This document shows positions 15,236 to 35,511 of a stretch of 35,511 bases of DNA, one piece after another; position 1 is the stretch's first letter, and each line of letters starts with the position of its first letter. The position numbers were made by a program, and so were the translations under genes. The DNA comes from an uncultured Acidobacteriota bacterium. Lineage in GTDB: Bacteria > Acidobacteriota > Vicinamibacteria > Fen-336. The notes below the pieces were generated by a model. That model worked only from the letters and a program-made list of their open reading frames with translations, made no database searches and was not told the DNA's origin. The stretch lies in the NCBI GenBank assembly GCA_902826455.1, contig CADEEV010000046.1, forward strand, positions 1 to 35,511. Reading direction: 5' to 3'.

Positions 15236-15475
15236 CTAGCGCAGGTGGCCGATCTTGCTCTGCAGGAAGGCGCGGCCGCGCTTGAACTCGGCGATGTCGC
15301 CGCGGGCGAGGGCCGCCACGGTCTCGGAAGCGCGGGCCGAAAGCTCGGGCTCCTCGAGCTCCAGGAGCAGGTCGCGGACCTGTCCCAGCTTCACCGCGAT
15401 GCTGTCGAGCGTGCCGACATCGGTGGCGTTCAAGGTGGAGAGCAGCATGTCTATCCGGTCGGGAGCGGCCTTCAT
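15236..15475 (-). CDS. Small helical protein of unknown function
   Basis: The product is 79 residues, predominantly helical and acidic in the middle (KLGQVRDLLLELEEPEL, ETVAALARGDIAEFKRGRAFLQSKIGHL). It has no signal peptide, cysteine or recognised motif. I consider it real because it has a normal amino-acid composition for this genome, fills the gap between aldehyde dehydrogenase and trxB exactly, and starts 9 bases after a palindromic -10 box shared with trxB. I do not recognise the family. The heptad-like leucines allow a short coiled coil or a four-helix dimer. Transcription may continue into the aldehyde dehydrogenase gene 28 bases downstream. Confidence 0.62.
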   Translation of the reverse strand: MKAAPDRIDMLLSTLNATDVGTLDSIAVKLGQVRDLLLELEEPELSARASETVAALARGDIAEFKRGRAFLQSKIGHLR

Positions 15476-15484
15476 GGACCGCCG

Positions 15485-15492
15485 AGTATACT
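15485..15492. promoter_or_regulatory. Palindromic bidirectional -10 element (AGTATACT)
   Basis: The 8-base palindrome reads TATACT, a five-of-six -10 match, on both strands. Rightward it ends 7 bases before the trxB ATG at 15500; leftward it ends 9 bases before the ATG of the 79-residue protein at 15475. Only 24 bases separate the two start codons, so both messages would have almost no leader and the two polymerases would exclude each other. No -35 box is evident on either side. Confidence 0.55.
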
Positions 15493-15499
15493 GGCCTTC

Positions 15500-16459
15500 A
15501 TGCCCAACAAAGAACGCTACAGGATCGTCATTCTCGGCTCGGGGCCCGCCGGATTGACGGCAGCGCTCTATGCGTCACGCGCGAATCTCGAGCCCCTGGT
15601 GGTCGAAGGCGGGGGCGGCGACGACCCCACGGACATCCCCGGCGGCCAGCTCATGCTGACCACCGACGTCGACAACTATCCGGGCTTTCCCGAAGGCATC
15701 CTCGGGCCCGAGCTCATGACGCGGATGCGCAAGCAGGTGGAGCGCTTCGGCGCCGAGTTCGCGACCGGCGCCCTCAAGGAAGTGAACCTGCGCGAGCGGC
15801 CCTTCTCCCTGAAGCTGGCCGAAGGCACCGTCCACTCCGACGTCCTCATCATCGCGAGCGGCGCGACGGCGCGCTGGCTGGGCCTGCCCGAGGAGCTGGA
15901 GTTCCGCACCAAGATCGGCGGCGTGTCGGCCTGCGCCACCTGCGACGGCTTCTTCTACAAGAACAAGGAAGTGCTCGTGGTGGGCGGCGGCGACACGGCC
16001 ATGGAGGAGGCGACGTTCCTCACGAAGTTCGCCTCGAAGGTCACGATCGTCCACCGCCGCGAGGAGCTGCGGGCCTCGAAGATCATGCAGGATCGCGCGC
16101 AGTCGAACCCGAAGGTGGCGTGGCTGCTCAACAGCGAGATCCAGCAGATCCTGGGCGGGGCCGGCAAGGGCGTGACGGGCGCGAAGATCCGCAACACGAA
16201 GACGGGCGCCGTGACCGAGGTCGCGGCCGGCGGCATCTTCATGGCGATCGGCCACGTGCCCAACACCGCGCCGTTCAAGGACCAGCTCGAGATGGACGAG
16301 AGCGGGTACCTGCTCACCCACGGCGGCACCACGGCCACGAGCCTGCCCGGCGTGTTCGCGGCCGGCGACGTGCAGGACCACCGCTACCGCCAGGCGATCA
16401 CGGCAGCCGGCAGCGGCTGCATGGCCGCGATCGACGCCGAACGGTTCCTCGACCACTAA
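15500..16459 (+). CDS. trxB: Thioredoxin reductase
   Basis: This 319-residue flavoprotein has the full low-molecular-weight thioredoxin reductase layout. The FAD motif GSGPAGLTAALYASRANL is followed by GGQLMLTTDVDNYPGF. The NADPH domain carries the redox pair C145-A-T-C148 followed by DGFFYKNKEVLVVGGGDTAMEEA and HRREELRAS. A C-terminal FAD motif is GVFAAGDVQDHRYRQAITAAGSGCMAA. It moves electrons from NADPH to thioredoxin in the cytoplasm. The ATG at 15500 is 7 bases after the shared -10 box and has no Shine-Dalgarno sequence, so the message is probably leaderless. The glycosyltransferase gene follows 3 bases after its stop. Confidence 0.97.
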   Translation: MPNKERYRIVILGSGPAGLTAALYASRANLEPLVVEGGGGDDPTDIPGGQLMLTTDVDNYPGFPEGILGPELMTRMRKQVERFGAEFATGALKEVNLRERPFSLKLAEGTVHSDVLIIASGATARWLGLPEELEFRTKIGGVSACATCDGFFYKNKEVLVVGGGDTAMEEATFLTKFASKVTIVHRREELRASKIMQDRAQSNPKVAWLLNSEIQQILGGAGKGVTGAKIRNTKTGAVTEVAAGGIFMAIGHVPNTAPFKDQLEMDESGYLLTHGGTTATSLPGVFAAGDVQDHRYRQAITAAGSGCMAAIDAERFLDH

Positions 16460-33408: not shown

Positions 33409-34782
33409 CTAGCGAGGAGGAAGGCCGCCCTTCTTCCTGCCCTTGGCGGCCTTCTTGGGCTTCCCGCCCCGCGGCGCGCCACCCCCGGCCGGCAGCGAGG
33501 ACAACACGAGGAGCACCGCCCCGGCCGCGATCTCCCACGGGGCCCACCAGGTGCCGTGCACGAACTCGCGCGACCAGGCGAGGGCGCCGAGACCCATGAG
33601 GGACAGCGCCGGCAGGAGCGACACGAGCACGGTCGACCAGCGGCGCGGCGCGAGCGGCGCCAGGTTCGGGAGCAGGAACACGAACAGGGCTGGAACGGGG
33701 TGCTGGAAGAACAGATAGCCGAACAGGGCCGTGGCGACGAGGCGCGCGCCGAGAGCGCTCGCGCCCTGGCGCAGACCGAGGCGCAGGCCCGGCAGCACCG
33801 ACACGAGCGCGATCGCGAACAGGAGCACCGGGCCCAGGACGGCCCCGAAGGCCGAGAACCAGTGGGGCTCGGCGGCCGCGCCCCGCGGCGCCGTCTCGAG
33901 GTCGCGCAGGATCGCGAGCACGCCGCGGCCCATGCGGCCGAGGGAATCCGGATCGAGCTTGTCCGTCGTATCGCTCCCGGTGTGGTACCAGGGGTAGAAC
34001 GCGGTGAAGGACGAGTCCGACACGAACAGGGCCGGCAGCCCGGCCTGCAGGAACGCGAGGTCGTCGCCGTACATGTCCGCGCGGAACGTCCGCACCGTGG
34101 CCTGGTAGAGCCAGGGGATCCAGGGGTCCCCCACCACGAACGGCACGCCCGCGCCGCGCGCGGCGGACGAGGCCCGCTGCAGCAGCCACGCGGGCGCGAT
34201 GACGCTCTGGCCGGGCCGCAGCGGATCGGCGTAGGCGATCGGCTGGAAGGCCGGTGTCCCGCCCTTCCAGCCGCACATCTCCACCACGAAGGCGGCGGTC
34301 AGGTTCCGGCTCTCGGCACCCAGCGCCTTGATGTAGGCGCGGGACCCGGCGGTCGTGGTCTTGCCGGTCGACCAGGCCTCCTCCCCGTCGAACGAGACGA
34401 ACACGAACGTGCGGTGGCGCTCCTTGTCCTTCGCGAGGGCGCGGGCCGCCTCGATCAGCACGCCGACGCCGCCGCCGTCGTCGTAGGCGCCGGGAGCCTC
34501 GGGAGCCGTGTCGTGATGGGCGCCCACCACGACGAACTCCGGCCCCGGCGCCCGCAGCACGCCGATCACGTTCTGACCGGAGACGCCGTGGCTCTCGAAG
34601 GGCTGGAGGCGCACCTCCTGGAGTCCCGCGTCGCGGAACTGCGAGGCGACGTACTGGGCGGCGAGGGCGTTGCGGGGCGAGCCCCAGGGATGCGGACCGA
34701 GGGCCGCCAGGCGCGAGGCGTGCTCGTGGGCCGCGGCGCCGTCGAGGCCCGCGGCGAGCGCCAAGGCGTAGAGGAAGTGCAT
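33409..34782 (-). CDS. M28-family zinc aminopeptidase with C-terminal membrane domain
   Basis: This 457-residue protein has an M28 domain at about residues 18-305. The co-catalytic zinc set is complete: VVGAHHDTA, AYDDGGGVGVL (Asp), SFDGEEAW (Glu-Glu) and, near the end, FYPWYHTGSDTTDKLD (His). About five membrane helices follow (from LLFAIALVSVLPG to AAGAVLLVLSSLPAG), and a Lys-rich tail (KPKKAAKGRKKGG) should be cytoplasmic. It lies closer to ER-metallopeptidase-like layouts than to secreted aminopeptidases, which lack membrane helices. The N-terminus MHFLYALALAAGLDG may be a signal peptide or anchor. The start is ATG at 34782, 11 bases after a perfect TATAAT. Confidence 0.88.
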   Translation of the reverse strand: MHFLYALALAAGLDGAAAHEHASRLAALGPHPWGSPRNALAAQYVASQFRDAGLQEVRLQPFESHGVSGQNVIGVLRAPGPEFVVVGAHHDTAPEAPGAYDDGGGVGVLIEAARALAKDKERHRTFVFVSFDGEEAWSTGKTTTAGSRAYIKALGAESRNLTAAFVVEMCGWKGGTPAFQPIAYADPLRPGQSVIAPAWLLQRASSAARGAGVPFVVGDPWIPWLYQATVRTFRADMYGDDLAFLQAGLPALFVSDSSFTAFYPWYHTGSDTTDKLDPDSLGRMGRGVLAILRDLETAPRGAAAEPHWFSAFGAVLGPVLLFAIALVSVLPGLRLGLRQGASALGARLVATALFGYLFFQHPVPALFVFLLPNLAPLAPRRWSTVLVSLLPALSLMGLGALAWSREFVHGTWWAPWEIAAGAVLLVLSSLPAGGGAPRGGKPKKAAKGRKKGGLPPR

Positions 34783-34793
34783 GAAGGCCGCGA

Positions 34794-34801
34794 ATTATAG
34801 C
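34794..34801. promoter_or_regulatory. Overlapping divergent -10 elements of the M28 and cupredoxin genes
   Basis: Leftward TATAAT (34799-34794), a perfect -10, lies 11 bases before the peptidase ATG. Rightward TATAGC (34796-34801, four of six) lies 8 bases before the cupredoxin-gene ATG. The two overlap by four bases in a 27-base intergenic region. No -35 or ribosome site is visible. Confidence 0.55.
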
Positions 34802-34809
34802 GTGCTAAG

Positions 34810-35511
34810 ATGCGGCCGTTTCGTCTGGAGGCCTCCCTGCGCGTTTCCGCGGCCCTGCTGGGCCTCGCCGTGGTCTTCCCCGCGTCGGCCGGCACCGTCA
34901 CGGGCACGATCTCGGTTCTCGAGAAGGACGGCCGCCAGGCCAACGATCTCGGCGACGTCGTCGTGTGGGTGGACGGCGTCAGCGCCAAGGCCCGCCCCGA
35001 AGCGAAGCCGGACGCCGCGAAGGCGCGCATCGTGATGCGCGCGAAGAGCTTCACCCCCCACGTCCTCGCCGTGACAGCCGGCTCTCCCGTCGAGTTCCCG
35101 AACGACGACCCGATCTTCCACAACGCGTTCTCCGTGTCCGGAGAGAACCGCTTCGACCTCGATCTCTACAAGCGGCCCAAGAGCGGCCAGTGGACCGCGG
35201 TCGCCCCGGGCATCGTCCGGGTGTTCTGCAACATCCATCCGCAGATGAGCGCGATCGTCGTGGTGCGCGACAACCCGTTCTTCGCGAAGGCCGGCGCCGA
35301 CGGCAGCTTCCGCATCCCGGGCGTGCCGGCCGGTCAATACACCGTGAAGGCCTGGCACGAGCGGGGCGGCGAAGGATCGATCGCGGTCACGGTGCCCGCC
35401 ACCGGCGAGGTCGGCACGCGCCTCGTGCTCGACGCCTCCAACTACAAGCGCTCCGGCCACAAGAACAAGTTCGGCAAGGACTACTCCGCCTCGGGGGCTG
35501 ACAAGTACTGA
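34810..35511 (+). CDS. Secreted cupredoxin-like protein with carboxypeptidase-regulatory-like domain
   Basis: This 233-residue protein has a signal peptide (ALLGLAVVFPASA), then a beta-sandwich with the layout of a blue-copper protein. A characteristic VEFPNDDPIFHNAFSVS supplies H104, and RVFCNIHPQMSAIVVV supplies C140, H143 and M146, a complete type 1 copper set. A C-terminal carboxypeptidase-regulatory-like region follows (GSFRIPGVPAGQYTVKAWHE). Similar proteins are annotated as methylamine-utilisation or plastocyanin-like electron carriers. The predicted role is periplasmic electron transfer or copper binding. The gene ends exactly at the window end with TGA. Its ATG is 8 bases from a weak -10 box. 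Confidence 0.88.
   Translation: MRPFRLEASLRVSAALLGLAVVFPASAGTVTGTISVLEKDGRQANDLGDVVVWVDGVSAKARPEAKPDAAKARIVMRAKSFTPHVLAVTAGSPVEFPNDDPIFHNAFSVSGENRFDLDLYKRPKSGQWTAVAPGIVRVFCNIHPQMSAIVVVRDNPFFAKAGADGSFRIPGVPAGQYTVKAWHERGGEGSIAVTVPATGEVGTRLVLDASNYKRSGHKNKFGKDYSASGADKY

Follow-up and report, generated by a model that had tools for sequence, protein, structure and literature searches.

We propose that the octamer AGTATACT at positions 15485-15492 of the window, by which we mean the whole 35,511-nucleotide stretch of DNA analysed here, is quite probably the core of a bidirectional housekeeping-sigma promoter in a minimal, double-leaderless form, derived from the collapse of two promoters. It lies between trxB and a divergently oriented gene for a small conserved protein in a genome of 5.26 Mb and 71% G+C; the host and the relatives with which it was compared are uncultured Vicinamibacteria of the Acidobacteriota. 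The elements concerned are the following.

15485..15492, both strands: the octamer AGTATACT, a symmetric predicted common -10 element, assigned from the sequence and from the symmetric form kept in the related genera g7 and g8
15487..15492, plus strand: the trxB -10 hexamer TATACT, followed by 7 nt (GGCCTTC) and the ATG at 15500
15485..15490, minus strand (read 15490-15485): the -10 hexamer TATACT of the small gene, followed by 9 nt (CGGCGGTCC) and the ATG at 15475
15476..15499: the spacer between the two start codons, 24 nt
15500..16459, plus strand: trxB, thioredoxin-disulfide reductase, 319 aa, predicted to be leaderless (TIGR01292, 374.8 bits against a cut-off of 343.45)
15236..15475, minus strand: a conserved protein of 79 aa, role unassigned, with a predicted four-helix fold (conservation, dN/dS, AF2)

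Rereading of the sequence, with the ATGs at 15500 and 15475, showed the initial annotation to be exact in describing a palindrome that presents the same TATACT -10 on both strands, at 7 nt from one start codon and 9 nt from the other, and within 24 nt in all. The two hexamers overlap, having TATA in common, and each carries a T at -7 and an A at -11; the outer A at 15485 constitutes the T at -7 of the minus strand. At trxB (7 nt) as well as at the small gene (9 nt), the last base of a TANNNT motif is thus separated from the start codon by a distance in the range of about 6-9 nt. No -35 element was detected in either direction, the best candidates in the window matching at most 2 of 6 positions and a promoter scan also returning none, and the lack of a visible -35 is the usual state in this genome. 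AGTATACT occurs once in the window, where shuffles lead one to expect 0.01 occurrences, and the genome of 5.26 Mb contains three copies in all. One of the others has a ruvX-like start at 11 nt and, divergent from it, a protein-kinase-like start at 30 nt, both names having been given by reading the translations. Of note, the sequence GGCCTTCATG is found twice, at 15467-15476 and 15493-15502, the copies being 26 bp apart and spanning the region of both start codons, which is perhaps due to chance or to an old partial duplication.

In the mechanism that we envisage, region 2 of sigma would read the self-complementary TATA within the hexamer TATACT on either strand, and the outer A and T would provide the essential T at -7, one for each direction. 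The orientation of the polymerase would decide which gene is copied. In the trxB orientation, transcription would start at or next to the ATG (~15499-15500), and in the opposite orientation 0-4 nt from the ATG of the small gene (~15478-15475). Both mRNAs, leaderless or nearly so, would be translated without a Shine-Dalgarno site. Transcription of both strands and the exact start sites are what we infer here.

That trxB is leaderless in this genome is well supported, and the position of its start matches the starts in relatives. In the upstream regions of trxB across the family (L005-L008, L068), TATACT is kept while the leader varies from ~6 to ~50 nt, those genes that have a leader also showing GGAG-like sites; this variation indicates that leaderless and led translation of one gene interchange within one family. 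The small unknown protein had been taken for a genuine gene product, and this was borne out by its presence in 11 of 14 family genomes, and also in the sister family, with a dN/dS of about 0.14-0.35, which is indicative of purifying selection. The conserved core of its alignment ends with RAFLQSKIGHLR, and it is modelled by AF2 as four helices with confidence (pLDDT 91.4). No Pfam or NCBIfam family was matched, and a fold search against the PDB returned only non-significant helical-bundle matches. For this gene we predict a leader of 0-4 nt, judging from the 9-nt gap; in relatives the gap is mostly 6-7 nt. The greater distance in the window counts against a common box.

The hypothesis of leaderless expression was supported by a genome-wide signal. 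The frequency of TANNNT over 1.19 Mb of the genome was 12-24 per 1000 at 6-9 nt upstream of candidate ATGs, as compared to a background of ~4 per 1000 at other distances and 0.55 before ATGs inside genes. Overlapping -10s between divergent candidate starts numbered 7 versus 0.7 in shuffles, and none of 500 shuffles gave as many. The arrangement as a whole recurs in the class: the pattern CAT-N5-9-ANTATANT-N5-9-ATG, ANTATANT being the symmetric form of the octamer, was found 48 times in 60 Vicinamibacteria genomes versus 2 for a reversed control, and 4 times versus 0 in the present genome. With spacers of 12-16 nt the counts were 7 and 7, so that the excess is confined to the leaderless spacing. 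Since AT-rich genomes match by chance phylum-wide and give high controls, only the class-level count was used. Of 28 cases of the pattern that were fetched, 21 were flanked on either side by an open frame of 70 aa or more, and the products were often recognisable; one example is pdxJ (PF03740) beside a membrane protein, and in the relatives of pdxJ no common promoter was seen. All 25 genomic ANTATANT octamers lie no more than 60 nt from a plausible start and 21 have a start on each side, a figure that may be too high owing to antisense frames, the DNA being GC-rich. Hence, the arrangement is less unusual than was originally claimed, and its recurrence across the class means that it is very probably not an accident. 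The proposal that one -10 drives two leaderless genes is supported by the conservation of the octamer, the TANNNT peak and the 48:2 ratio, with the reservation that the small gene is predicted to have a leader of 0-4 nt.

Comparison of both upstream regions across the family distinguished two states, one with a -10 common to both genes and one with separate promoters. The common-box state was seen in three genera only, namely that of the window (g1, AGTATACT), g7 (AATATACT, two species) and g8 (ATTATACT, two species). The starts are close in all three, the octamer is of the symmetric form, and the -10 of the small gene reads TATACT, TATATT or TATAAT at 6-9 nt from its ATG. As trxB has a leader of ~30-40 nt in g8, the small gene alone would be leaderless there. 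In the separate state, represented by two species of g4 and by g10, the divergent orientation is retained, with the TATACT of trxB further off, and the small gene has a promoter of its own, TTGACA-N17/18-TACGGT, 6-7 nt from its ATG. In g3, g5 and g6 the small gene is relocated, again with its own promoter (TTGACA/TACGGT in g6, TTGACA/TAGTGT in g5 and TAGCGT in g3), and g2 yielded no copy of it. The palindrome, which had been expected to be conserved wherever the two genes are divergent, is thus kept in g7 and g8 but not in g4 and g10, the genera in which a separate promoter serves the small gene.

Given that the separate-promoter state is still seen in g4 and g10, the common box most likely originated by promoter collapse, in which two promoters, originally apart, would have lost the intervening DNA, leaving one box to serve both genes; this is the direction of evolution that we infer. 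The trxB, gyrA and concatenated trees do not resolve the order of g1, g7 and g8, and are compatible with a single origin of the common box or with up to three, the reverse direction also being possible. For rpoB (TIGR02013), no match was obtained in this assembly (listed completeness 100%) or in several of the relatives, and the gene may be absent from the bins or have been overlooked by the search.

It is conceivable, if rather unlikely, that the class repeatedly collapses promoters into CAT-N5-9-ANTATANT-N5-9-ATG and that exclusion between polymerases then became regulatory coupling at some sites, the trxB/small-gene site included. We regard as quite unlikely a reading of the initially proposed strand-choice switch in which the common box forces the polymerase to choose, the expression of trxB opposes that of the small gene, and selection acts on this coupling. 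Mutual exclusion of the polymerases does follow from the geometry, as the 4-bp overlap of the hexamers sterically precludes simultaneous binding, and at bidirectional promoters of E. coli, strong activation in one direction can lead to repression of the opposite one (PMC12825309). The switch itself found no support here, however: at all five E. coli bidirectional promoters tested, basal activity was too low for polymerase competition (PMC12825309), the pairing of trxB with the small gene is not stable, the two being separated in g3, g5 and g6, and the same design joins unrelated gene pairs. Such unstable pairing, together with the unrelated pairs found elsewhere, suggests compaction more than coupling.

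A further alternative is that the octamer is the promoter of trxB only, in which case the TATACT of the minus strand would be incidental to the symmetry of TATA, and transcription of the small gene would start elsewhere or be next to nil. It could be argued in its favour that TATA is self-complementary, and partial symmetry comes free, and that TATACT is conserved upstream of trxB in g1, g2, g3, g4, g5, g6, g7, g8 and g10, that is, even in the absence of the small gene. The outer A, which is useless to trxB, speaks against it. This base, which gives the T at -7 on the minus strand, is A in 5 of 5 common-box species and in 0 of 7 others (G in six and T in one), that is, only where the small gene starts adjacently; an exact count gives 1 in 792 by species and 1 in 84 by genus, ignoring relatedness, and by genus the contrast is at most 3 versus 6 genera. 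Among 105 leaderless-type promoters of this genome, A occupies the outer position in 13 (12%) and G in 51, implying that G is preferred there and that A is not what a promoter serving trxB alone would usually carry. In addition, the TTGACA/TACGGT promoter that the small gene has in g4, g6 and g10 is missing here, and no other -10 was seen near its start. We consequently hold this alternative to be improbable. That AGTATACT is instead an operator for a dimeric repressor or activator, as a perfect 8-bp palindrome between divergent genes might suggest, is very unlikely indeed, since its second base varies (G, A or T) while the -10 letters stay, its position fits TANNNT at 6-9 nt from the starts, and this class of octamer precedes many unrelated genes.

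Returning to the bidirectional promoter core, the reading that best accommodates the sequence is that the trxB box belongs to the symmetric bidirectional promoters of Warman/Grainger type, as an almost minimal variant in which both genes are leaderless or nearly so. In such promoters (Warman et al., 2021), as portrayed in passages of PMC10268837 and PMC12825309, a pseudo-symmetric -10 is used on both strands, with starts 7-25 bp apart and spacings of 18, 10 and 23 bp being common. Similarly, the trxB box would offer one -10 to both strands without need of a -35, and the predicted starts, 21-25 bp apart, fall within the 7-25 bp range. As to spacing, it differs in that the hexamers here overlap by TATA within an 8-bp palindrome, which would set the starts 21 bp apart if each lay 7 nt from its hexamer; it differs also in that both genes begin at, or a few nt from, the predicted transcription start. 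Leaderless genes have been predicted to make up 9.7-19.4% of genes in three genomes of Acidobacteria (Zheng et al., 2011, PMC3160421), and TANNNT 6-9 nt before the ATG resembles the ORF-adjacent -10 of leaderless genes described there and for Deinococcus-Thermus (PMC12340547). Unlike the present case, both of these papers treat single genes, and the words bidirectional and divergent are absent from them. For Mycobacterium tuberculosis, passages of PMC3898074 describe divergent promoters as common, with prpD and its divergent regulator both leaderless; these passages contain no single common palindromic -10 with start codons 5-9 nt to either side. The trxB box would unite symmetric bidirectional promoters with leaderless genes, both of them known phenomena, in two start codons around one 8-bp box. 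Moreover, the series within the family from separate (g4, g10) to common (g1, g7, g8) promoters makes the evolution of promoter sharing, and the costs and benefits of polymerase exclusion, directly testable, and the pattern is simple enough for finding such pairs and correcting start-codon annotation in any GC-rich genome.

Another of the fetched cases of the pattern, and a more conserved pair, is formed by a uridine kinase gene (PF00485) and a divergent ftsX-like gene, the latter named by reading its translation, with a palindromic -10 between them (L175 ~1490-1520; L217-L231) that is kept in most family species in which the two are divergent neighbours. Either ATTATAAT or ATTATACT is kept in g1, g4, g7, g8 and g9, at 6-8 nt from the kinase ATG, and on the ftsX side the distance amounts to 8 nt in g1 and in g4b, being greater in the others and reaching ~18 nt or more. 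In g6, the promoter of the uridine kinase is palindromic (ATTATAAT) although ftsX does not adjoin it, which shows that symmetry by itself is no proof of two-way use.

The window contains a second divergent pair, at 34782-34810, consisting of a gene for an M28 peptidase (ATG 34782, minus strand) and one for a 233-aa protein (ATG 34810, plus strand); overlapping -10s are found in the intervening 27 nt, with TATAAT on the minus strand 11 nt and TAGCGT on the plus strand 6 nt from the respective starts. In a relative from the class (L193), the match CATGGGAGGGATTATAATCCCTCCCATG, bounded at either end by a start codon, is over its whole length a perfect 28-bp palindrome; it is flanked by a glycogen-synthase-like frame on one side and a second long frame on the other.
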